Shown: in pieces, positions 1,883-39,887 of the stretch
Numbering within the stretch: the first letter of the stretch is position 1
Layout: every line of letters begins with the position of its first letter
From: a virus
Length of the DNA stretch: 43,627 bases
Virus record (IMG/VR): IMGVR_UViG_3300045922_000165
Location: 1-43,627 of that record
Direction: 5' to 3' (one strand)
Translations under genes and position numbers: made by a program
The notes under the pieces: generated by a model
Seen by the model: only the letters and a program-made list of their open reading frames with translations
Databases searched by the model: none
What the model was told of the DNA's origin: nothing

Positions 1883-3349
1883 CTACCTAATAAACGTATA
1901 GTTGGTTGTGCCGCTAACACCCGCAGGGTTGTTGAACTCATATATTCTATAGGAAACTGGGTTCCCGTCTAGACCAGTAATGTTTTCAGTCCTTAGTGTA
2001 AAGTTGCTAAGGTTCTCAAACCCGTTAATATCGAGAATAGAAACAAGGGCCGAGATTGAGGCCGGATAAGCAAAGTAAAACACATCACCCACCGAGAAGG
2101 TAAATGTTCTAAGAGCGGAACTTTGCGGGCCGATGATCTGCTTAGTAAGACCAGCGACTTGAGCAGGCGTTCGACCAGGCAGGGCAGCGCCAAAGTAATA
2201 CGGGTAAACAAACGAGTAGGTCAAAGACACATCCCTGTTCTGAGGAGTCCCGCCGTTACTTGTACCATCGTCCCTTACCCTCACGTTAAAGGTAAAGTTG
2301 TTGTTAAAAGAACCAGTCCAGGCCTGTGTCCTTACCCCAGAGTTGGGATTGCCCGTCTGGGTTGCACCAATTATGTTGGCAGGATTGATCGTCCCCGCAT
2401 AGAATGTTACGTCCAAAATGGGGTCGGAGTTACGAGTAACGCTTGAACTTAGGGTCATCGAAGTAACCGCGTCCCCCCTTTCTCTAAGTGCTGTGGATAC
2501 GTTCGATGTGAGAGTTGCGCCCGGCAGTACATACTGAAAGTTAAAAATAGCTGTGATCGCTTCCCTAATACCGTTGATGTTAAAAAAGGCGTTACCAAAG
2601 CGCGCACTAAACCCGGTGAACTGAGCCGACTGCCAAATAGGAAGCAAGGTTATGTCGTCGGCCTCCAAGAATTTCTTTTCGTCACCGGCAGTCAAGGGCG
2701 GAAGACTGCCGCCTCCGGTCGTTAGGAAGACGACAATCTCGTCTATCGCGGCTTGCACGTCGACCGCCGTAAGCCCGCTTACAGAGTTATCGTATCCGAT
2801 GTCAATTGCCTGAACGTTCTCAAGCGCCGATATGCGGTTTAGTATGTCAACGTACGACGGACCCAAAACAAAGCCGTCACCTGTAGCGTTAAGCGCCACA
2901 ATCTCATCGCCCAACGCACTAAAATAATCTTTAGGAAGGCGCGTATCAAACTCGCCAGGAATAAAACCTTCGCCAAGTTTTACATAAGAGGCCAGCTTCT
3001 CATAGATCAAGCGTATTTGGGTATAGATCCGGTCCAGCTCTTGATCGAGAGCAAAAGGTGCTATGCGCGGACTCGAACCAAACTGAGCATTTCTGAGCGG
3101 GTTAAGCTCATGGTAAAGAAATATATTTTCTCCCGCAGTAATAGGTGTGGTTAGAGTCACCACACCGCCAACGCTAAGACCTACGCCGGAAACCGTGTAG
3201 TCTATGTTGAGCTGCAAAACAGTCGACACCGCGTTGGCGTCTCGCTTTATGACCCGTATATGAGACGCATTAAAAATCTGAAAGTTGTAGGCAAACTGAT
3301 TGTTAGAGCCAAGCGGGTTAAAGCCGTAGGATTGTTTTGTTGCGCTCAT
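1883..3349 (-). CDS. T7 gp17-like tail fibre anchor protein
   Basis: A 488-aa protein. Residues 1-125 match the N-terminal domain of T7-type tail fibres (Phage_T7_tail family): NNQFAYNFQIFNASHIRV, then IDYTVSG, a VVTLTTPITAGENIFLYHEL stretch, and ALDQELDRIYTQIRLIYEKL, the helix that precedes the shaft. In T7 this domain attaches fibres to the portal/tail junction. The remaining 360 residues are beta-rich, low in cysteine and unrelated to the T7 tip. The gene lies 3 bases after the giant internal protein and just before the glycine-rich fibre, so the two fibre genes probably form a branched or two-part adsorption apparatus. The anchor assignment is firm; the function of the C-terminal part is unknown. 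Confidence 0.85.
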   Translation of the reverse strand: MSATKQSYGFNPLGSNNQFAYNFQIFNASHIRVIKRDANAVSTVLQLNIDYTVSGVGLSVGGVVTLTTPITAGENIFLYHELNPLRNAQFGSSPRIAPFALDQELDRIYTQIRLIYEKLASYVKLGEGFIPGEFDTRLPKDYFSALGDEIVALNATGDGFVLGPSYVDILNRISALENVQAIDIGYDNSVSGLTAVDVQAAIDEIVVFLTTGGGSLPPLTAGDEKKFLEADDITLLPIWQSAQFTGFSARFGNAFFNINGIREAITAIFNFQYVLPGATLTSNVSTALRERGDAVTSMTLSSSVTRNSDPILDVTFYAGTINPANIIGATQTGNPNSGVRTQAWTGSFNNNFTFNVRVRDDGTSNGGTPQNRDVSLTYSFVYPYYFGAALPGRTPAQVAGLTKQIIGPQSSALRTFTFSVGDVFYFAYPASISALVSILDINGFENLSNFTLRTENITGLDGNPVSYRIYEFNNPAGVSGTTNYTFIR

Positions 3350-3352
3350 AAA

Positions 3353-6300
3353 TTACCGCCGTTGCCTTGTTTTGCGTCTTCGTGTCATTGGCTGCCCCCT
3401 CAAATTCTCACCCTTGCCGCGCAACAAATCAAGTAGCAAACCGCTATCAGATAAGTTGTCTTGGTCTGATGCCAAGTTAAAGATAAACTTAGCGGCATTT
3501 CTAGGTCCAGGTCCAGCCGGAATCGGTAGCTGAGACATGTTTGCAATAGCCATAAGATCACTTACAACATCGCCAGGAGACGCTGGCGTGTAGCGCGTTC
3601 GCCCCATAAACTCGTACGCCCGTTGGTACTCGCCTTCAGTCCCGTAGGTAAAGAGACCTGTGCCTACTTTTGCCACAGTGTCTACAACTTGAGCGGCGGG
3701 TAGGTTGACAAAGTCGCTGAACTCAAGCGGTTTATTCACCCCGTAAACATTGTAGAGATAGCCTGGGTGCTGCCCGTCCTCGCCAAAAAGCGAGTTGATG
3801 GCGGCGTTCGTACCTCGCAGCCAAAGTTTTTTAAGGCCAGAGCCTGCGCCGGGGATAAGCTCAAACGGCGAGCCCGCCATCTGCGAGGTCAGCCGTGTGG
3901 TCGCAAGTAAAGGGTCGCTTAGGAAATCGTCCGCAAGACCTTCCAAGTCGTTACGCCCACTCAGCAACCCACGCGAAGTGTCCTCAAGCGCCTGGGGTAA
4001 AAAGATCGCAATAAAAGCCATGGGGGCCAAAGCGCCCCAGCGTTTAAGCATGCTATCAGCAAACTGAAAATCGACCTCGCGCTTTCTGCCTGTCGCGTAG
4101 TTAAGGCGCTTGACTGACCAGTTCGTGTACATAAAGGCTGCTCGCGCCATGTTGCTTCTCAGCGCCCCATAGACTTCACTGGCAAAGTAGCCGGGCATGA
4201 CACGCTCAACGTCTCGCTCGGCCAAACGAATTGCCTCATTAAAGTCGGCACCGCGTCGCATGTGGCCGTCCATAAACAGCGAGAAGGCGGCGGTCTCAAC
4301 AACCCCTTGTGTGTAGTGGTCAGCAAAACGAGACACGCTATCGAAATAGGCGTTCACTTGCGCCGCCAATTTAGCGACCGGAAGACCAGCTCGCATAGCG
4401 GCAGTCTGGCGCAAAGACGCATCAAGAGCTTGCCTTGCGTAATTGATATTGTTTTGTTGCCGCGCCTGAAGGTAGGGCGAGAGCGACTGTAAATAAAGAT
4501 ACTTGTTACGGTGTAGAATCAAGTCGGCAGCGGTCATGCCGAACTGAAGGGCTTTTGCCACCCTCTGAGTCGTAGGGCGCACAAGACCGGACTCGGCCTG
4601 AACTCCGCCAGCATCCTGAACCACGATAAGGTCCGCCACTTTACCGGCTTCAAACGCGTTCAACACGGGTGAGATAAAGTTCCACGCAATTTGCAGCTTG
4701 GACGTAAGCCCCGTGATCGCTGTCGTAAGTTTACTGGCCGCTTCGTAAGCGGACTCCATGCGGATGTCACCAAGCGCACCACTATGGATACTCTGGTCAT
4801 TAAAGGCGCGCACCGCAGGCCAGATAGTGTTTTCCATAACTCCAGGACTTATCGAGTCCAACAAAGTGTATATGTTTTTATCTAAGAACACTTCGGATGT
4901 GACTACCGAGGCCTCGCGAATGTGGTTAATACGCTCAATCTTAAGTAAGTGATTGACGTAGGAGCTGGCGTCTAAGGACAGCCGCTCTCCCTCGATTGTC
5001 GAACGCGACTTCTCATAAGACGCCACAACCGGGGTTTCGCTTAAAAGATCCGACAAGCTTTCCATGTAGCCACTACGTGCGAACTGTTCCTGGGCCTTCT
5101 CAATAGACACCGCCGATTTCTTCTGAAACAAACTCTTCTCGGATATCGGAGACATGTTTGTTTTTATGGGGGCGTACCAGCCAGACTTGATCCACTCTTT
5201 TGGTACGACATCGCCAAAGGGGAAACGTTTGTCGGAAAGCTTTACATAGCGACCAAAAGTTTTCTTGTGCTCGCGTTGCACGTCCTTAAACTTAACCTCG
5301 TATCGGTCACCCATGACTTGAGCAAATTTAAAATGAGCTTCAGTAAGCACACCATTTTCAATGGCCTCGCGCACGTATGTTTTTAACCCGTCGATGTCGG
5401 TATTAAAATTTCTTCTCGCCAAGCGAGCAGCGTTTTCCATGTTGCCTAAGTTAAGCGCAATCGAAATTAACTCCGGTGCGGTAAACATCTCACTAGCAAA
5501 TTGCTTCTTGCCTTTAAAAGACAAAGACTCTGAGTTTAAGTTAACAAGTTGGTTAAGCTGAGTAAGAAACTCAACGTGACCGCCGGGGCCGTTAACCGAG
5601 TTAATCAGATTTGATGTCGACTCTCTCACTAAGTCCGCAACTTTAGAGAGCTCCGGCACGTTAAGCGAATATATAAAGTCGGAGAACAAACTAAAATTCT
5701 GCGCCGTTCTTCGAGCGATACCGCTCAACGAATTAGGGTCTTCTCTTAAGCCAAGCTGACCGCGCGTGCGGTCAAGAGCGGCCAAGATATTGTCGTTGAC
5801 CGAAATTTTAGTGGGGTCTTCGGCGCGCTGTTCGCGGATAGCTCTAGCAAACTCCGCCCGATACGTAGGCCCAAACCGTCCGCCCGTCTTCCTGTCGCCA
5901 AGCTCAATTTCTCGCTTAAGCAAGGAATTAAATATATCTGACCGTACGTCAGCAACCGGCTTCCCATCTACTTTGTAGACAATAGGCTCGTTCTTTGCGG
6001 CGGTTACTCGGTCAGCCAAAGAGGCGACCATGTTCATATACTCAATTGCGCTTAGGCCTTCGCGGACCTCCGGAACGTAAGGGTCGAACTCGTAAACAAG
6101 TCGCTCGTATTTGTACGGATCAAACTGAGCCAGGGAATCAAGCTGGTCCTGGACAAAAGCGGACGCCCTAACCGCGCCAGATCGCTCAAGGACTAGGCGC
6201 GCACCCAAAACGTAATCAGTATCGTAGCCTTGCTGATTGAGCTCGGTTAAATCTGACTTTACTATCCAGTCTACAACTTTTTGCGTGTCCTTAATCGCGC

Positions 6301-25305: not shown

Positions 25306-25565
25306 AAACCGCCATGAAAGACTTCACTGCTTTAATCGACCTTGCTGTCAAAGCCAACGATCAAGCCTATGTCCCCTGTGACTTCCCGATTCAGGTCAAT
25401 GGGGAGACATGGGTCGCACATGAGGCAAGCATCTGTCACCGCGACATTCTTTTAAGTTGCGACAAGGGGACGGCGACCTTTCTGGTTGATTCCTATGGGG
25501 ACCGCCATGTTTGCGAGATCTTTGATTGGGAGAGTGACCAAGATGAGCAAGGCGGTGACCAATGA
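25302..25565 (+). CDS. Small early protein, unknown
   Basis: An 87-aa protein. It begins with an ATGA overlap on the upstream gene and ends with an ATGA overlap on ardC, so all three are probably translated as one unit. Features: FTALIDLAVKANDQAYVPCD near the N-terminus and an acidic end (DWESDQDEQGGDQ). No domain recognised. The tight linkage to an antirestriction gene suggests a role early after DNA entry, but this is only context. Confidence 0.6.
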   Translation: MKTAMKDFTALIDLAVKANDQAYVPCDFPIQVNGETWVAHEASICHRDILLSCDKGTATFLVDSYGDRHVCEIFDWESDQDEQGGDQ

Positions 25566-26428
25566 GCAAAGTCACTCCATACGATATCGTGGCGCAGCAA
25601 ATCACCGACATCATGGCTCAAGGTGAGATTCCTTGGTCTAAGCCTTACTTTACCGCCAAGCTTGGCAATCAATGCAATGGCATGACCAAGCGGCAATATA
25701 CCGGCTTAAATGCAATCATTCTGGCCTCGCGTGGCTTTGGCAACAATCACTGGCTCACATTCAAGCAAGCAAGTGACATGGGCCTCAAGATTCGCAAGGG
25801 CGAGAAGGCCACAAACATTCTTGGCTGGTTTTCAAAGCAAGTAAGGGAAGAAGACGCAAGTCCTGAAGACTACGAAACACGCATCTTCGCTCGCTACTTC
25901 AAAGTGTTTAATGCCGATCAACTGGACCAGGTCCCTGATAGCATGAAAATTGGCGCTTTGATCGACAACCCCTTGGATCTGCCACGCATTGCCGAGGCGG
26001 ATTCCCTAGCCAAAAGGACTGGCGCAATCATCGAGGTTTTCCCATCTTGCACACCTAGTTACTGGCCGCTTGCCGATAAAATCAAAATGCCATGCTACAC
26101 GACCTTTTCTAGCCGCGAAGAATATTACTCAACTCTCTTCCATGAGCTGGGCCACTGGACTGGGCACAAGACAAGACTTGATCGCTTTAAAAAGTCCGAG
26201 CGCGTGGCCTTTGGAAATGAAGAGTACAGCCATGAGGAGCTTGTGGCCGAATTGACTGCGGCCTTTGTTTGTACGTCACTGAGCATTTCTAGCGACACAA
26301 GCTTGCGCAATAGTGCTGCGTACATTCAGGGGTGGATGAAGTACATTAAAGACAACTCAAAGTCCTTTGCGATTGCTTGCCAACAAGCAAAGAAAGCATC
26401 GGACTTTATCATGGCATACAAAAAATGA
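25562..26428 (+). CDS. ardC: ArdC-type antirestriction protein
   Basis: A 288-aa protein with the two-domain ArdC layout. The N-terminal ssDNA-binding part (1-130) has IVAQQITDIMAQGEIPW, NGMTKRQYTGLNAIIL and LKIRKGEKAT, typical of the family. The C-terminal zincin-like metallopeptidase part has FHELGHWTGH (H194, E195, H198), followed by EELVAELTAAFVC. ArdC proteins bind ssDNA and protect incoming DNA from restriction. Length is standard. It follows two small genes with ATGA overlaps and lies early in the rightward block, as expected for a function needed at DNA entry. The stop lies in AAAAAATGAG; see the alternate-frame entry just downstream. Confidence 0.9.
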   Translation: MSKVTPYDIVAQQITDIMAQGEIPWSKPYFTAKLGNQCNGMTKRQYTGLNAIILASRGFGNNHWLTFKQASDMGLKIRKGEKATNILGWFSKQVREEDASPEDYETRIFARYFKVFNADQLDQVPDSMKIGALIDNPLDLPRIAEADSLAKRTGAIIEVFPSCTPSYWPLADKIKMPCYTTFSSREEYYSTLFHELGHWTGHKTRLDRFKKSERVAFGNEEYSHEELVAELTAAFVCTSLSISSDTSLRNSAAYIQGWMKYIKDNSKSFAIACQQAKKASDFIMAYKK

Positions 26429-27652: not shown

Positions 27653-28408
27653 ATGGAAGTTAAAGTTAGAGTTGACGTGAACATTGGGCTTAATGAAGAC
27701 GCCAAGAGTTTCCTCATGGGCTTGGTTGAGGCCTTTGAAAACCGGCCGGCACCGGCACCAGCGCAAGAGGCAAAGCCTGCGCCTGCGCCTGAGCCTGAGC
27801 CTGCGCCTGAGCCTGAGCCTGCGCCTGCGCCTGCGCCCGCGCCCGCACAAGTGGTGACGCCAATACGCGGGCCTAACGAAGTGGAGATTGACCCAGACGC
27901 GCGGATAGTAAAGCCAAAACCCGCACCTGCGCCAAAGGCGGAGCCAAGTGTGGCGGCAAGCGCGCAGGACTTAAACCCTAAGCGCCGAGGAAGGCCCAAG
28001 AAAGACGCGGTGGTTGAGGATAGTGGCGCGCACCAAGGGGTGGCGTTCATTGCAGAGGTGGCGCAATCCGCAGCCCAGGAGTCAAGTGACATTGATCTTT
28101 TGGCCTCGACTCCAGATCCAGCACCGGCACCAAGTCCAGCTCCAGCACCGGCACCAAGTCCAGCACCGGCACCAAGTCCAGCACCGGCTTCAGCAAACGG
28201 GGGCGCTAAAGTTTTAGATGACACGGCGTTTAGACAAGAGGTCTCAAAAATCTACACGGCGGTAACAGGAGAGGCCAAGAATCAAGTGGCCAAAGCCTTA
28301 AGCGAGTTACTTGGTAAGCACAGTGCGGCCACCATTACCCAGGTGCCACAAGATCAGCGCGCCAAGTTCCTGGACGTGTTTAAATTCGTCGTTAAAGAAC
28401 TGGGCTAG
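27653..28408 (+). CDS. AT-hook, Pro/Ala-repeat protein of the replication cassette ('rrp5-like')
   Basis: A 251-aa protein in four parts: an N-terminal helix (VDVNIGLNEDAKSFLMGLVE), a PAPEPEPAP-type repeat (about 32-66), an AT-hook KRRGRPKK (about 110-117) and a second PAPSPAPAP repeat (154-182). A C-terminal domain follows (about 190-251; VSKIYTAVTGEAKNQVAKAL, ending FLDVFKFVVKELG). Small proteins with this form (helix, low-complexity linker, C-terminal '...Gak..sev......f'), sometimes annotated as rrp5-like, often precede DUF2800/DUF2815 genes in phages. Inference: a DNA-binding or annealing accessory factor. The linkers are encoded by hexamer and 18-mer DNA repeats, so length variation is likely. 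Confidence 0.65.
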   Translation: MEVKVRVDVNIGLNEDAKSFLMGLVEAFENRPAPAPAQEAKPAPAPEPEPAPEPEPAPAPAPAPAQVVTPIRGPNEVEIDPDARIVKPKPAPAPKAEPSVAASAQDLNPKRRGRPKKDAVVEDSGAHQGVAFIAEVAQSAAQESSDIDLLASTPDPAPAPSPAPAPAPSPAPAPSPAPASANGGAKVLDDTAFRQEVSKIYTAVTGEAKNQVAKALSELLGKHSAATITQVPQDQRAKFLDVFKFVVKELG

Positions 28409-28418
28409 GGGGGATGAG

Positions 28419-29717
28419 ATGCTAGACCCTATAGACCACGACACCGGCACAATTGCCCACTCGCTGCTTGGCCCAAGCAGTGCAGTGAGACGCTTGCAGT
28501 GCCCGGCAAGCTACAAAGCAGAACTTACTCACCTTTCTTTGTTTGGCCCAGAGGATTCAAGCTATGCGCGAGAAGGTACGATAGCGCATAAAGCACTTGA
28601 GCTTTGGGTTCTCTCCGGAGAAGCTGACTGCAACGCTTATCTTAAGGAAAACTTTGGCTCGCTTTGGGAGCAACATAAATATAACCTTCTCCCCACGGTT
28701 GAATGGATTGATGAGTGGATGAGTAAAGGATACGCTCTCAAGATTGAGTCGCGCTATGATCTTACCCACTTACACCCCACGTGCTTTGGGACCGCTGACG
28801 TGACCTTGATTCATGCGGGGCGAAAGCACCTGATTATCCTGGACTTTAAGTATGGGCAGGGCGTTGGCGTGGACGCAGAGTATGGCTCATTTGAGCGAGT
28901 AAAAGAAAAGAGTATTGTGGGCGTAGATGCCAACGTTCAAGGTGTCATGTACGCAAGCGGTGCACTCAAAGACATGGGCTTAAGCGACACCGATATACTG
29001 GACTGGACTATTGACATTGCGATTAGTCAACCAAGACACGGCGAGGAGTGGCTTAAAAGTACCACGATTGGTGGCTTCGAGCTGGTCTACGCGCAGGATT
29101 ATATACGCGATAAGTTTAGTACGCTTATGACAGACGATAACCCGGCCTATAGAATTGGTTCTCATTGCCAGTTCTGTAGCGCAAGACCTACGTGCCCAGC
29201 ACAAGCCAAGCGCGTACTCGATGCCTTTGAAGGTATCGCAGCCCTTACGGATACGGAGAAAGATATGGTTGAAAACCTTGATGTACCAACGGAACCAAGT
29301 GATGAGTTTGACAAGACTCTTGGCCGTCTTAGGGCGCTTTGGGATATGAAACAAGAGTGCACTCGGTTCTTTTCACAACTGGATAAGTTCATAACCGAGT
29401 GCATCCAGAAGGGACACAACGAAAAACTTGGCCTTGAGCTTATTCCAGGGCGTGGTAGGAGAGCTTACCCAGAGAGCATCCAAACCCCTGAAGACCTGGC
29501 CGAGATTCTTTCGGTCATGGGCGTGGAGATTGACGTGGATGCTATCACCAAAAAAGAGCTGTTGCCTTTTACTAAGGTGGCGCAGAAACTAAAGAAGCCA
29601 GAGCGCAAAATCCTTGAGGATCTTTTAGTCCAACTTCCAGGCAGCCCCAAGATTGCGGCCATGCGTGAGGGTGGCGACTTACTCATGGACTTTGGCAACG
29701 TTGAGATACTAGATTAA
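28419..29717 (+). CDS. DUF2800 family PD-(D/E)XK nuclease with probable Fe-S site
   Basis: I choose the ATG at 28419 (432 aa), with AGGGGGG at 28407-28413, over longer readings. Motifs: an N-terminal Cys in RRLQCPAS, then REGTIAHKALELW (the RecB-nuclease helix), FGTADVTLIH and HLIILDFKYGQGV (D and K of the active site). Three further cysteines follow in GSHCQFCSARPTC. One Cys upstream and three downstream of the nuclease core is the Cas4/AddB-like arrangement that usually holds a 4Fe-4S cluster. DUF2800 proteins stand next to DUF2815 and polA in many phages. Inference: a recombination or end-processing exonuclease. Confidence 0.85.
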   Translation: MLDPIDHDTGTIAHSLLGPSSAVRRLQCPASYKAELTHLSLFGPEDSSYAREGTIAHKALELWVLSGEADCNAYLKENFGSLWEQHKYNLLPTVEWIDEWMSKGYALKIESRYDLTHLHPTCFGTADVTLIHAGRKHLIILDFKYGQGVGVDAEYGSFERVKEKSIVGVDANVQGVMYASGALKDMGLSDTDILDWTIDIAISQPRHGEEWLKSTTIGGFELVYAQDYIRDKFSTLMTDDNPAYRIGSHCQFCSARPTCPAQAKRVLDAFEGIAALTDTEKDMVENLDVPTEPSDEFDKTLGRLRALWDMKQECTRFFSQLDKFITECIQKGHNEKLGLELIPGRGRRAYPESIQTPEDLAEILSVMGVEIDVDAITKKELLPFTKVAQKLKKPERKILEDLLVQLPGSPKIAAMREGGDLLMDFGNVEILD

Positions 29718-29753: not shown

Positions 29754-30560
29754 ATGCGCATATTTGATATGAATAAAGAACAAATACAGGCCAATATCGT
29801 GGCTAAGATGTTCTCACCAGAGGGTCACATTAAGAGAACCATCTCTGACCTTAATCGTTTGCAGAAGGGGGATAAGGATGTCACAGTTCAAGTTCTCTTG
29901 CCAAAGTTTCGCTTGAGCTATCCCGCACTTGACGTGCCCAAGGAAGGCGAGTGGAAGGGACAGAAGCTAGACCCTAAGTACAGTGCGGTGGCAGTTTTTG
30001 ACCCTGAAGAAAGCCAAGCTTTATGGCCGTACTGGCGCGTGGTGTATGCACTGTGCTCAAAATACCTGGGCAAAAAAGCTCCCGCGTTCATTCTTAACGT
30101 GAACAACGGCGCTGTCTTGGTCAAGAGTAACGAAGATTATCTTGAGACCCAAATCGAAAAGGGTAAGGACATCAGCCAGACTCAAGACGTGTACAAAAAG
30201 GGCGGATCATTTCTTAACCTGAGTCGTAACGCAAAGTTTGGTCCGGTTTTACTTGTTGGTAAAGATCGCAAGGTCTTAACCGCTGCGGAAGCCAAGACGC
30301 AGATTTACGCTGGTTGTTACTGTCAAGCCACCGTTGAACTTTTTGCCATGAATAACGACAAGGTCGCCCAGCGATTACTTGGTGTTATGAAAGTGGGCGA
30401 GGGCGAACGCTTAACTGGGGGAGCTGTTGGTAGCGTTGACGCTTTTGAGAGTGTCAATATACTTGACCCTATTGAAGGCGGCGACTCCGCACCAAGTCTT
30501 GGTGATATGTTTGGCGGCCGTGCTGATGCAGACGCAGAGATGTCTAATCTTTTAGGTTAA
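29754..30560 (+). CDS. DUF2815 family ssDNA-binding protein
   Basis: A 268-aa protein preceded by AAAGGAG. Diagnostic pieces are VLLPKFRLSYPALDVPKEGE, KYSAVAVFDPEE, the middle KGGSFLNLSRNAKFGPVLL, and IYAGCYCQATVELFAMNND, which correspond to the family pattern 'RlSYp.lf.p...dg...kYs......p' and 'Y.GcyvRA.v..y.f'. The C-terminal 40 residues are acidic and flexible (ADADAEMSNLLG), as in single-strand binding proteins that recruit partners. It lies directly before the DNA polymerase. Role as the phage SSB is the accepted view for the family. Confidence 0.85.
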   Translation: MRIFDMNKEQIQANIVAKMFSPEGHIKRTISDLNRLQKGDKDVTVQVLLPKFRLSYPALDVPKEGEWKGQKLDPKYSAVAVFDPEESQALWPYWRVVYALCSKYLGKKAPAFILNVNNGAVLVKSNEDYLETQIEKGKDISQTQDVYKKGGSFLNLSRNAKFGPVLLVGKDRKVLTAAEAKTQIYAGCYCQATVELFAMNNDKVAQRLLGVMKVGEGERLTGGAVGSVDAFESVNILDPIEGGDSAPSLGDMFGGRADADAEMSNLLG

Positions 30561-36979: not shown

Positions 36980-37268
36980 CGAAACGGCAGAAGATGTGGC
37001 AAAAAAACTTGCGGACGCGTTGGGGTTTATGGAAAAGCGGGTAGAGCTTTCGTCCGAGATACTGCGTGGGGTAACTATATTCACCGCTGCGACTTACTCC
37101 ACATACATTGACGCATACAAAGACAAGGGCGCTTTGGCTGTGCTTAGAGCGCATAAAGCTTTAGCCCAAGCTGTAGCTGACGACGTTAAAACCCACAACA
37201 TTCAGGGCCTATCAATTGAGGTCGGAGAGGCCAAAGTCGAGAGCGAGAACGATGACAACTTGGCGTGA
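36972..37268 (+). CDS. Unknown helical protein
   Basis: A 98-aa protein, preceded by AAAAAGGAGAGG. It is helical and Ala-rich with an acidic tail (VGEAKVESENDDNLA) and a central hydrophobic region (ILRGVTIFTAATYSTYIDAY). No recognised domain. It overlaps the preceding HTH gene and the following 38-codon gene, so it is part of a tightly packed group. Confidence 0.6.
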   Translation: MSNETAEDVAKKLADALGFMEKRVELSSEILRGVTIFTAATYSTYIDAYKDKGALAVLRAHKALAQAVADDVKTHNIQGLSIEVGEAKVESENDDNLA

Positions 37269-37368
37269 TGTTGTGTTTGTAATGCTTCTTATGCTTGCCG
37301 CAGCGGTGGTGTCTTCTCACTTACCACTGGACTGCGAGCCTGAGTGCACTCAAGATTCGGGGCGGTGA
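37252..37368 (+). CDS. Tiny exported or membrane protein with two cysteines
   Basis: A 38-aa ORF starting within the previous gene and ending 3 bases before the cytosine methyltransferase ATG. It has a hydrophobic segment VVFVMLLMLAAAVV and a polar end with DCEPEC. This is a signal peptide or membrane anchor. The stop lies in GGTGAGCTATG, the same junction sequence that precedes other genes of this block. Confidence 0.5.
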   Translation: MTTWRDVVFVMLLMLAAAVVSSHLPLDCEPECTQDSGR

Positions 37369-37371
37369 GCT

Positions 37372-38181
37372 ATGCTTAGGTCGCTAGACCTATTTACAGG
37401 TTATGGGGGGATTACGCTGGCATTGGAAAACTATTGCCAGCCGATTGCTTATGTTGAAATCGAAGAATACGCACAGAGAATTATTGCAGAAAGAATGGCC
37501 GATGGCTCTCTCCCGAGAGCTCCAATTCTTGCAGATGTCAAAAACGTGCGAGGTAAATCTGGCGACTGTGACATCATCGTCGGAGGATTTCCATGCCAGG
37601 ACATTAGCGTTGCTAGAAATGGAAAGGGCTTGGCAGGAGAGCGAAGTGGACTTTTTTTCGAGATTGCTCGCCTTACCAAAGAAATTCAGCCCAGTTTTGT
37701 TTTTCTTGAAAACTCGCCAGCAATACGCACTAGAGGACTATATCATGTCGCCAATGAATTTACCGCTATGGGGTATGCTTGTCGATGGACGGTTGTTTCT
37801 GCCGGCTACGTTGGAGCCGCTCACGAAAGAAAAAGATTCTTCTTACTTGCCCACGCCAACAGCAAGACCATACGGAAACAACCAATCAAAAAGCAAAGGG
37901 AGCTCTGTAAGGCCAAGCCTTTCAACAATGGCCTCACACAACAAGTGGCCGACTCCGCTAGCGAGAGACTGGAAGGGGCCGGTCGGCAAAAACAGAGAAT
38001 GCCTATCGCTTCCAAGCTTAGTCGAAAAGAGTGGCTTAAGATTGAACCCGCAGTTTGTCGAGGCACTCATGGGACTAGCTATCGGGTGGACCGACTTAAA
38101 GCCCTTGGCAATGGCGTCGTGCCAGAGCAAGCAAGAGTAGCTTTTGAATATTTAATGGGGATTAAGGACGGTAAGCTATGA
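37372..38181 (+). CDS. dcm: C5-cytosine DNA methyltransferase
   Basis: A 269-aa protein with the ordered motifs of the family: I LDLFTGYGG (5-13), IV GGFPCQDIS (catalytic Cys75), VI LENSPAIR (ENS at 113-115 in place of the usual ENV), VIII-like HERKRFFLLAH (151-160) and X ALGNGVVPEQA (about 244-254). The variable region before motif X is short (about 70 aa), at the low end for target recognition. It would methylate cytosine in phage DNA to evade restriction. It overlaps dam by 4 bases. Its +1 frame carries another long, motif-like ORF; see separate entry. Confidence 0.92.
   Translation: MLRSLDLFTGYGGITLALENYCQPIAYVEIEEYAQRIIAERMADGSLPRAPILADVKNVRGKSGDCDIIVGGFPCQDISVARNGKGLAGERSGLFFEIARLTKEIQPSFVFLENSPAIRTRGLYHVANEFTAMGYACRWTVVSAGYVGAAHERKRFFLLAHANSKTIRKQPIKKQRELCKAKPFNNGLTQQVADSASERLEGAGRQKQRMPIASKLSRKEWLKIEPAVCRGTHGTSYRVDRLKALGNGVVPEQARVAFEYLMGIKDGKL
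37403..38140 (+). CDS. Overprinted ORF inside dcm (PTP/RDWKG family protein)
   Basis: In the +1 frame of dcm an ORF of 245 codons stays open for nearly the whole gene. Its second half does not look like a random shadow: PLWGMLVDGRLFLP (121-134), YLPTPTARPYG (148-158), KWPTPLARDWKGP (181-193) and LNPQFVEALMGLAIGWTDL (214-232). I recall this order from many proteins annotated as methyltransferase-associated ('WGmmrdGe', 'LPTPtA', 'WPTP.ARDWKg', 'LNP.fVEwLMGfPiGWTdL'). A shorter start at the ATG at 37619 (MERAWQE) is plausible. Product and function are unproven. Confidence 0.5.
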   Translation: MGGLRWHWKTIASRLLMLKSKNTHRELLQKEWPMALSRELQFLQMSKTCEVNLATVTSSSEDFHARTLALLEMERAWQESEVDFFSRLLALPKKFSPVLFFLKTRQQYALEDYIMSPMNLPLWGMLVDGRLFLPATLEPLTKEKDSSYLPTPTARPYGNNQSKSKGSSVRPSLSTMASHNKWPTPLARDWKGPVGKNRECLSLPSLVEKSGLRLNPQFVEALMGLAIGWTDLKPLAMASCQSKQE

Positions 38182-38986
38182 GCGAACCCCTGGCAATAAA
38201 ACGCCCAGTGCTTAGATATTTTGGGGGCAAGTTTATACTGGCTCCTTGGATTATCTCTCATTTTCCTAAGCACAAAGTCTATGTCGAGCCTTATGGCGGG
38301 GCAGCCTCGGTCCTTATGAGAAAGCAACGATCTTATGGTGAGGTCTACAATGACATTGACGACTCTTTGTATTCTCTTTTTAAGGTTCTCGCCGATCAAA
38401 AGAAACACCAGGAATTAAAAAAAGTCGTTGAAGCCACTCCGTTTTCAAGAAGAGAGTTTGAACTGGCTCATGTTTATCACCCCTGTGAAATTGAAAAAGC
38501 CAGAAGATTGATTGTCAGAAGTTTTATGGGCTTTAGCGCAGACTCGTCTACAAACGTAGAGAGAAAAACTGGCTTTCGCTCGAATTTAAATAGAAGTGGC
38601 ACCACCCCAGCCCATGATTGGGTAAACTGGCCTCAATATATCCCGACCTTTTATGAAAGGCTTAAAGGTGTAGTGATTGAGTGCAAAGACGCTTTTGATG
38701 TTATAAAAACCCACGACTCAAAAGATACTCTATTTTATGTAGATCCCCCTTATTCCCATCAGACCAGGCGCAGTGGTCGGTATAAGCATGAGCTTGATGA
38801 CCAAGACCACGTTGAACTTTTATCTCTACTCAAAACAGTACAAGGGAATGTCGTGCTTTCTGGCTACGACTCTGAGTTTTATTCTCAGTATCTAAGCGGA
38901 TGGAGGGTAGTGACAAAAGATACCTTTGCAGACGGTGCAAAAAAAAGAACAGAAGTACTTTGGATTAAGGACGGTGAGCTATGAGC
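38159..38986 (+). repeat. 25-bp direct repeat bracketing the adenine methyltransferase gene
   Basis: The stretch at 38159-38183 (it contains ATTAAGGACGGTAAGCTATG) recurs at 38962-38986 with a single A-to-G change, i.e. 24 of 25 bases. Each copy spans the end of a methyltransferase gene, the ribosome-site region and the next ATG. The repeats are 803 bp apart and dam lies exactly between them. The 11-bp core GGTGAGCTATG also occurs at the dcm start (37364-37374). Confidence 0.85.
38178..38984 (+). CDS. dam: N6-adenine DNA methyltransferase (D12/Dam class)
   Basis: A 268-aa protein with LRYFGGKFILAPWI (FGGK near 15-18, SAM binding), YVEPYGGAASVLM (EP.GG at 37-41), EVYNDIDDSLYSLF (ND.D at 58-61), and LFYVDPPYSHQTRR (catalytic DPPY near 190). 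Order and length match the D12 class. The start overlaps dcm by 4 bases. The C-terminus (WIKDGEL) repeats the end of Dcm (GIKDGKL) because of the direct repeat. Expected role: adenine methylation for restriction evasion or regulation. Confidence 0.93.
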   Translation: MSEPLAIKRPVLRYFGGKFILAPWIISHFPKHKVYVEPYGGAASVLMRKQRSYGEVYNDIDDSLYSLFKVLADQKKHQELKKVVEATPFSRREFELAHVYHPCEIEKARRLIVRSFMGFSADSSTNVERKTGFRSNLNRSGTTPAHDWVNWPQYIPTFYERLKGVVIECKDAFDVIKTHDSKDTLFYVDPPYSHQTRRSGRYKHELDDQDHVELLSLLKTVQGNVVLSGYDSEFYSQYLSGWRVVTKDTFADGAKKRTEVLWIKDGEL

Positions 38987-39025
38987 CGGCAAGAGCCAAG
39001 AAAGTTTAAAGAAAGGATGAAATGA
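38981..39025 (+). CDS. Very short ORF linking dam to the next gene
   Basis: A 14-codon ORF (MSRQEPRKFKERMK) whose ATG overlaps the dam stop and whose stop overlaps the next ATG. Its 5' end lies in the second copy of the direct repeat, and its first residues MSRQ match those of the 94-aa HTH protein at 36695. It may be only a coupling leader or the remnant start of a lost gene. Confidence 0.3.
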   Translation: MSRQEPRKFKERMK

Positions 39026-39249
39026 CAACGAAAGAGGCTGTAGTCCACTTAGTAAGTGAGCTTAAAAAAGACGAGGGTTATTATATGTCTTGGCAGGCAA
39101 ATATTGCCATGCAATTCAAGGACGAGTGTAAAAGACAGGGTGTTACATTGCCTGGCATTCACGAAATATCTAACAATGCAGCAAAGAATTTCATCGACCT
39201 TCTTTGTTACGATGTAGAGCTTAAAGAGGACAAACCAAAGGAGAATTAA
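39022..39249 (+). CDS. Unknown small protein
   Basis: A 75-aa helical protein with AAAGGA before its ATG. It contains YYMSWQANIAMQFKDECKRQ, which resembles a short motif in phage proteins of unknown function ('yy.sw..nIa..f.de'), followed by a helix with NNAAKNFIDLL and an acidic/Lys tail. No enzymatic site. The surrounding genes (methyltransferase, repeat gene) give no functional hint. Confidence 0.6.
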   Translation: MTTKEAVVHLVSELKKDEGYYMSWQANIAMQFKDECKRQGVTLPGIHEISNNAAKNFIDLLCYDVELKEDKPKEN

Positions 39250-39558
39250 ATGAGCATTTTAATTGTAAACGGAGTAGAGTATAAACCAGTTAATCAAGAA
39301 AAAGATGTCCGGATTGTCATACTGCAAAGGGGATGGGTTTTCGTCGGCAACTTTAAAAAAGTTTCAGACAGCGAATGTATCCTAACCAACGCAAAGAACT
39401 ATCGCCAACAGCGGTCTGGCAAAGGCTTTGGGTATGTCGCTAAACACGGTCCTACGGCAGAGTGTAAACTAGATGACTGTGAGCTGCCAGTGCGCTTTCA
39501 TCCGCTAACAATCATTGCAACCTTAGACTGCGAGGCTTCAAAATGGAACTTGGGCTAA
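39250..39558 (+). CDS. Unknown small protein, probable beta-sandwich
   Basis: A 102-aa protein with AAAGGAG before the ATG. The pattern RIVILQRGWVFVGNFKKV, then CILTNAKNYRQQRSGKGFG and LDCELPVRFHPLTIIATL, resembles a family of small phage proteins built as 'yv.VRtysAGvhiG.l....v.L.narriwyW.GA.sl'. The resemblance is loose. It overlaps the next ORF by 16 bases. Confidence 0.55.
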   Translation: MSILIVNGVEYKPVNQEKDVRIVILQRGWVFVGNFKKVSDSECILTNAKNYRQQRSGKGFGYVAKHGPTAECKLDDCELPVRFHPLTIIATLDCEASKWNLG

Positions 39559-39887
39559 TCGCAAGTCTTGGAGAGGACGCAAACAATAGTTTTGCAGATA
39601 GAGCCGACGATGACGGATACCCCTACGGTGAAGGTGACGACTACAGCTACGGCAACGTCAACGGCAACGTCAACGGCAACGGCCACGGCGACGGCCACGG
39701 CGACGGCTACGGCAACGGCCACGGCTACGGCTACGGCAACGTCAACGGCAACGGCTACGGCTACGGCAACGTCAACGGCAACGGCTACGGCAACGGCCAC
39801 GGCTACGGCTACGGCAACGGCCACGGCTACGGCTACGGCAACGGCGACGGCGACGGCGACGGCAACTGTGACGGCAAAGGGTTTTAA
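39543..39887 (+). CDS. Gly/Asn/Tyr/His repeat protein encoded by a hexanucleotide repeat
   Basis: A 114-aa ORF. The first 35 residues are ordinary and acidic (MELGLIASLGEDANNSFADR). The remaining part consists of G-X dipeptides, X being Y, N, H or D, with occasional VN (YGNGHGYGYGNVNGNGYG). The ATG at 39543 lies inside the previous gene after GAGG. The protein is predicted to be disordered or fibre-like, with many histidines and tyrosines. Two other frames through the repeat are also open as (Ala-Thr)n and, on the minus strand, (Val-Ala)n, so the frame is not proven. I prefer this frame because of its ATG, ribosome site and coupling. Confidence 0.5.
   Translation: MELGLIASLGEDANNSFADRADDDGYPYGEGDDYSYGNVNGNVNGNGHGDGHGDGYGNGHGYGYGNVNGNGYGYGNVNGNGYGNGHGYGYGNGHGYGYGNGDGDGDGNCDGKGF
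39648..39866. repeat. GGCNAC hexanucleotide repeat tract
   Basis: About 219 bp, 36 units of 6 bases: GGCTAC, GGCAAC, GGCCAC, GGCGAC and some GTCAAC. Only one base of each unit varies freely, and all four bases occur there. Longer repeats of two to five units also recur (for example GGCTACGGCAACGTCAAC). Expansion and contraction by slippage or unequal recombination is expected. Confidence 0.95.

Follow-up and report, generated by a model that had tools for sequence, protein, structure and literature searches.

In this study, we have described a direct repeat of 25 bases that brackets the dam gene of a virus, each copy being a complete coupled gene junction. Both copies probably descend from a single junction, the one that ends the upstream cytosine methyltransferase gene dcm, which would have been copied onto the 3' end of dam when this gene was inserted or during a remodelling soon after. 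The window, that is, the whole stretch of DNA that was analysed, comprises 43,627 bases (IMG/VR virus record IMGVR_UViG_3300045922_000165), and the features concerned are the following:

25549..25567, + strand: related extended Shine-Dalgarno/start AAGG-CGGTGACCAATGAGC of the ArdC-like gene, gapped score 13 to junction copy 2
25562-26428, + strand: ArdC-like anti-restriction gene (N-terminal ArdC domain, zincin-like domain)
28311..29717, + strand: phage exonuclease (phrog_69, DUF2800), a possible strand-annealing recombination partner
29754..30560, + strand: Gp2.5-like ssDNA-binding/annealing protein (phrog_112, Enc34_ssDNA-bd)
37252..37368, + strand: 38-residue ORF upstream of dcm, with its stop codon inside the third junction copy
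37354..37374, + strand: third, partial junction copy before dcm, 18/21 to copy 2, core CGGTGAGCTATG exact
37372..38181, + strand: dcm, C5 cytosine DNA methyltransferase of 269 residues (PF00145, E 2.9e-37; phrog_363)
38159..38183, + strand: junction copy 1 (dcm end GIKDGKL and stop, AAGGAcGGTaA, spacer GCT, ATGA overlap, ATGAGC start of dam)
38178..38984, + strand: dam, D12-class N6-adenine DNA methyltransferase of 268 residues (PF02086, E 1.8e-22), usual C-terminal tail missing
38962..38986, + strand: junction copy 2 (dam end WIKDGEL and stop, AAGGAcGGTGA, ATGA overlap, ATGAGC start of the 14-codon ORF)
38981..39025, + strand: 14-codon ORF (MSRQEPRKFKERMK) after junction copy 2, with an ATGA overlap with the start at 39022
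39022..39249, + strand: next full-length gene, 75 residues, no family assigned

The gene set of the window is podovirus-like, with Pfam or phrog matches to a head-tail connector, a DNA polymerase A, a primase and an SNF2-type helicase, and with a weak match to a nozzle protein that falls below Pfam's cut-off. The nearest annotated phages are distant: the connector is about 25% identical to those of Pelagibacter phages and epsilon15, and the polymerase about 27% identical to those of the APSE and BPP-1 phages. The methyltransferase genes are consecutive in a rightward operon with 4-base ATGA overlaps, followed by the 14-codon ORF and, again through ATGA, by the 39022 gene; according to the ORF listing and Pfam, the segment between the copies (38178-38984) holds dam alone. 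The G+C content of dam (0.426, compared with 0.480 for dcm and 0.486 for the window) is suggestive at most of a foreign origin and was left out of the argument. Repetitive coding sequence of other kinds is present in the window as well, namely an array of 12-base units shortly 3' of the methylase genes (39543-39887), which encodes a peptide rich in glycine that also contains Asn, Asp, His and Tyr, and a GC-rich stretch of GCCTGCGCC-type units (27745-28190) in the ORF 27653-28408.

The junction copies GGATTAAGGACGGTAAGCTATGAGC and GGATTAAGGACGGTGAGCTATGAGC are identical at 24 of 25 bases (96%) and lie 803 bases apart. A sequence-only reading of this DNA had already reported a 25-bp repeat precisely bracketing dam, and both its coordinates and its degree of identity were reproduced, as was the description of each copy as a gene's last codons, the junction and the next ATG, the coupling junction lying inside the repeat. 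Read 5' to 3', the repeat is built as GGATT-AAGGAcGGTRA-GCT-ATGAGC, and it encodes the IKDGKL and IKDGEL ends of dcm and dam, two consecutive genes that thus share their C-terminal codons at the DNA level. Beyond the repeat, identity falls to 13 of 50 bases upstream and 17 of 50 downstream, and a tandem gene duplication is therefore not the explanation. The single mismatch divides the repeat into perfect runs of 14 and then 10 bases, which makes it a poor substrate for efficient homologous recombination. The core also precedes dcm, as had been noted earlier, in the third copy (37353-37377 and 68% identity in the register of the repeat search, with the best register at 37354-37374). There the frame is a different one, CGG TGA closing the 38-residue ORF before GCT and then ATG, so that a common peptide does not account for the common core, and for this core the idea that convergent coding of IKDG was the only cause was rejected. 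At the mismatch position both other copies carry G, and the A of the copy before dam is therefore probably a later change.

The consensus complement of the 16S 3' end is AAGGAGGTGA. The middle of the repeat resembles it, plus one extra C, and the repeat is in fact a coupled gene junction made of an extended Shine-Dalgarno sequence (AAGGAcGGTgA), the spacer GCT and an overlapping stop/start ATGA; that the core is such a sequence had been overlooked before. Predicted pairing with the anti-Shine-Dalgarno amounts to -9.7 kcal/mol for the copy before dam, where the mismatch lowers it, -14.3 for the copy after dam and -12.5 for the third copy before dcm, none of which falls outside the values of the other starts of the window. 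Among all ATG sites of the window, four score at least 10 against the motif, two of them being the dam-flanking pair; the start at 25562, with its score of 13, exceeds all 1278 junctions of other loci, and that of a tail gene at 3349 (minus strand) scores 10, a value reached about 0.45 times per shuffled window. The extended Shine-Dalgarno, a flavour used at other starts of this virus (25562), accounts for part of the similarity between the copies. The junctions were no more stable as RNA structures than shuffles (z -0.02, -0.50 and -0.36), and a structured RNA element was dropped from consideration; promoter-like sites were as frequent as in shuffles, and no internal promoter is argued for. 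The architecture of ATGA coupling is present, with the stop/start overlap and a Shine-Dalgarno in the upstream coding end, and from it each junction copy would be expected to act in linking dcm, dam and the ORF behind them translationally. Coupling by termination-reinitiation at ATGA overlaps has been measured in 14 gene pairs (PMC6728339); at the dam locus it is predicted from the DNA sequence.

Several comparisons indicate how unusual the match is. Taken in register (-18 to +6), the two dam junctions agree at 23 of 25 positions. In other loci, 4 of 880 adjacent coupled junction pairs reach at least 20 of 25 (L065, L057, L030 and L129, the best with 23), while 110 of 992,973 cross-locus pairs reach at least 20 and 19 reach at least 23; these sets derive from 181 non-redundant loci, kept of 196 after removal of near-duplicates and with the window's own DNA (L001) excluded, which had been fetched around dcm, dam or helicase relatives and are not a random phage sample. 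When the two ends of dam are compared without gaps, the best match scores 22 in the window and at most 16 among 88 other Dam loci. Among 485 adjacent stop-junction pairs, the window included, its value of 22 is tied for best with an apparent paralogue array (L019). The 12-base core has no counterpart with at least 10 matching positions among 1278 coupled junctions of other loci, in a set of 180 loci from which those found by junction patterns (L198 and above) were left out. When the window was dinucleotide-shuffled 20 times, exact direct repeats spaced 30-2000 apart reached at most 15 bases. The ninR region of lambda, with its chains of small ATGA-linked genes, its Shine-Dalgarno-bearing junctions and its differing gene content, resembles the dam locus in the overlapping genes and the type of junction, and served as a control: its best shared run has 10 bases (ninB/ninC), much shorter than the 24 of 25 at dam. 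Thus, chance and selection for ribosome binding explain only part of the match.

One of the junctions retrieved by these comparisons, that of L057 (GAAGCCAAGCTAAAGGAGAAGAACACATGA, at 4148, 4354 and 5006), encodes the C-terminus KLKEKNT with the next start in the same ATGA. As AAAGGAGAAGAACACATGA/GAAGCCAAGCTAAAGGAGAAGAACACATGA it is found in at least 120 viral contigs (loci L201-L320), up to 7 times per locus. Among the matches listed, the downstream genes belong to 72 families, and the upstream genes come mostly from one homologous region, with 141 in one family; judged from these sequences, it resembles an extensive mosaic family made up of small phage genes, or a paralogue array. As its upstream genes mostly share a homologous region, we have not used it as a parallel to dam.

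The direction of copying is suggested by the C-termini. Dam relatives continue past the TEVLWI motif with a tail of median length 19 residues, and the residue after LW[ILMVF] is N in 70 of 85 and K in one (of 88 Dam loci, 87 include the stop codon, and the motif is present in 85 of these). The Dam of the window has K at this position and ends in KDGEL, a tail of 5 residues; a tail of 5 residues or fewer occurs in 1 of the 85, the L170 Dam, which ends WIK and shows that copying is not a necessary reading of a short Dam end. Dcm relatives, in 18 loci aligned of 80 fetched, end a few residues past LMG, with LMGIK in L003 and L004 and LMGIKG in L013, and L004 carries before its own ATGA the sequence TTTAATGGGGATTAA, whose 15 bases are identical to the window. 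By these alignments, the KDGEL-type ending appears Dcm-like and foreign on Dam, in the same frame as in Dcm. Since IK is a normal ending of Dcm and N is usual in Dam, we infer that the copying went from the end of dcm to the end of dam. Of the two origins that the sequence-only reading had offered, exchange of methyltransferase cassettes in a phage group or arrival of dam by duplication of the junction, the latter is the better supported, by the K in place of N, the shortened tail and the Dcm-like end. The edges of the repeat, in turn, coincide with short homologies that could predate the event. GGATTAA is found at the WIN codons in 2 of 85 dam relatives, one of which (L117) is the best of the viral-contig scan (56%), and the dam of LagS-V1, the closest annotated relative among the matches listed (54% identical), also starts ATGAGCGAACC, so that ATGAGC is plausibly native to dam.

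In the sequence of events that we propose, dam would have been spliced in behind dcm, or its 3' end remodelled soon after, and the dcm 3' end with its junction (GGATTAAGGACGGTGAGCT-ATGAGC) would have been copied onto the end of dam via very short homologies. On the left, this homology would be GGATTAA, present at the dcm end (GIK codons) and plausibly at the native dam end (WIN codons), and on the right ATGAGC, the first codons of dam and of the next ORF. The native Dam tail would have been lost, with KDGEL in its place, one substitution would have followed, and each copy would now act as the ribosome-binding and ATGA stop/start site serving dcm, dam and the following ORF. The exonuclease and the Gp2.5-like annealing-type protein of the virus would suit strand annealing. 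Efficient exchange usually needs a minimum of some 20-30 bases of homology. A deletion of dam between the copies is possible and should be rare, because the perfect identity extends over only 14 and 10 bases. The clean removal of dam envisaged by the sequence-only reading stands insofar as dcm would keep a proper end, and the next ORF its start, in a recombinant with one copy. Two points are corrected here: the "next gene" is only the 14-codon ORF, and the repeat is a poor substrate for efficient exchange. A dam-less variant, if one exists, would read dcm, then a single junction, then ATGAGCCGGCAA.

Other occurrences of the two genes give some idea of how they come together. In viral_contigs and genome_contigs, where the virus's own lineage is without a close relative, the exact 22-base junction had no match and neither an empty site nor a single-junction relative was found, and the insertion itself is therefore put forward as an inference. 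Searches of viral_contigs with Dam as a single query and with the head-tail connector returned no relatives, and the SNF2 helicase matches (27 loci at 22-32% identity) are not syntenic and were discarded as relatives. A DNA search of annotated phages with the 4 kb region gave two records, with a 72-base match inside a cytosine methyltransferase. The LagS-V1 pair was rejected as an ancestral dcm-dam arrangement: its annotated cytosine methyltransferase, directly before dam, is without detectable similarity to the Dcm of the window. The dcm relatives comprise 160 loci, 80 viral and 80 genomic (the best 80 of 600 and the best 80 of 460 confirmed), and in 2 of the 149 from these best-80 sets with at least 1.2 kb downstream (L344 and L400) dam lies directly behind dcm. 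A dcm match is also present in 8 of 88 Dam-match loci, at its nearest 258 bases before dam, measured between matched segments (L192). The linkage of dcm and dam is rare. In L344, an Acinetobacter sp. A47 prophage, dam begins in the dcm ATGA (4445), and in the viral contig L068, whose dcm segments are 93-97% identical, an unrelated 137-residue ORF begins at the same ATGA (6915), where the DNA similarity stops. This pair of sequences shows the replacement of a gene exactly at the coupled dcm junction, with no second copy of the junction. A further dam, that of L129, has a start-associated repeat of 20 of 25 bases at its start and end.

Not all observations favor the copying of the dcm end. GGATTAA is present at the end of dam in only 2 of the 85 relatives, the L344 dam carries no second junction copy, and the common use of ATGAGC (16% of coupled starts) together with the preference of the virus for this extended Shine-Dalgarno (score 13 at 25562) means that part of the match can be convergent. 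Carried to its end, this last argument becomes an explanation of its own, which we consider unlikely: the same Shine-Dalgarno, ATGA coupling and common MS- start would have been selected independently at both junctions, with GGATT native to Dcm (GIK) as well as to Dam (WI). Pairing of the core with the 3' end of the 16S RNA is predicted at -9.7 to -14.3 kcal/mol, and the same flavour recurs at 25562 and, weakly, at 3349 on the minus strand. Moreover, an 18-base stretch at the heart of the junction recurs exactly at three other places in viral_contigs, where the neighbouring genes listed are not dam, and two of these matches (L198 and L199, with AAGGACGGTGAGCTATGA) are ATGA junctions between open frames of unrelated viruses. 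In L198, the coupled junction AAGGACGGTGAGCTATGAG joins a 73-codon frame ending LGIKDGEL to a frame of at least 706 codons (around 4518), and in L199 the upstream frame ends YKDGEL. For a collection of about 40 billion bases, a size that is an estimate, chance would yield some two such matches; those found show that a junction of this kind can arise independently in a large collection, and convergence was therefore kept alive as a rival. However, other starts of similar predicted strength in the window use different Shine-Dalgarno letters (25302, -14.1), and ribosome binding thus does not dictate the letters of a junction; a core match of at least 11 of 12 is seen in just 0.012% of cross-locus pairs, and the match takes in bases that have no Shine-Dalgarno role, namely the C, GCT and GGATT.

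Possible, although on the unlikely side, is a template switch by which dam, already behind dcm, received the 25-base junction alone on its end while its old tail was deleted. The breakpoints (GGATTAA and ATGAGC) and the loss of the Dam tail would be the same, and this is in effect the late-remodelling variant of the explanation that we favor, set apart here since the relatives it predicts differ; it would leave the repeat silent on how dam arrived. It needs a separate event to place dam behind dcm, and no sequence distinguishes the order of the two events. A more general proposal, which we regard as distinctly improbable, takes the Shine-Dalgarno-bearing junction itself as the copied unit: phage operons would gain genes by capping each newcomer at its end with a ready-made module of stop, ribosome-binding site and start, so that neighbours come to share junctions, and here the module would have been reused for dcm, dam and, in diverged form, ardC. 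The excess of adjacent over cross-locus pairs at 20 of 25 or better (the 4 of 880 against 110 of 992,973 given above) speaks for it; against it, two of those four (L065 and L057) resemble arrays of paralogues, and methyltransferases plus one helicase were the starting points from which the loci had been sampled. Very unlikely, finally, is the group-wide view of the sequence-only reading, in which dam, already flanked by two such junctions in another phage, was transferred from there through homologous recombination at conserved boundaries. Short conserved boundaries have a precedent in the published Island3 comparison (PMC3029335), the swap at the dcm ATGA between L344 and L068 and the bracketed dam of L129 are in line with it, but the 22-mer is absent from viral_contigs and genome_contigs, the flanking genes listed for the three 18-mer matches are not dam, and the shared perfect run has just 14 bases.

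The copying of the dcm junction onto dam has its closest precedent, among the published cases considered, in gene 68 of the Cluster I mycobacteriophage Island3, whose C-terminal codons copy those of gene 67 and which is lacking in Brujita; recombination between the shared 3'-terminal copies adds or removes one gene with the reading frames kept, and the authors likewise invoke short boundary sequences (PMC3029335). Both systems have consecutive genes with shared 3'-terminal DNA, but in Island3 the shared DNA spans 60 bp and Brujita is an actual single-copy relative, whereas at the dam locus it spans 25 bp with one mismatch, overlaps the next start and has no such relative among those searched. 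The start-associated sequences of Cluster K, a 13 bp motif present in 11-19 copies per genome, are similar in being repeated at the ribosome-binding position beyond what 16S pairing needs, sometimes with the upstream stop codon (PMC3203893). They differ in their dispersal, and the window, where a strong pair is joined by one weaker copy and by a distant relative at 25562, falls short of such numbers. According to a study of phage mosaics, exchange is mostly homologous recombination by phage recombinases, not illegitimate events (PMC3945230), a picture that, given the short runs, fits a homology-guided event at dam only loosely.

All together, a short sequence is common to both boundaries of dam, at 24 of 25 bases, and on present evidence the duplication fits as one more instance of known boundary-sequence mosaicism. 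The duplicated junction is most likely a scar of how dam was spliced in beside dcm. Such a scar suggests that a gene can be added without breaking a coupled operon, the tail of the incoming gene being trimmed and capped with the stop, ribosome-binding site and start of its neighbour. If relatives with and without dam were found, the locus would record, base by base, how a DNA methyltransferase was gained or lost, and genes of this type are linked to escape from restriction.
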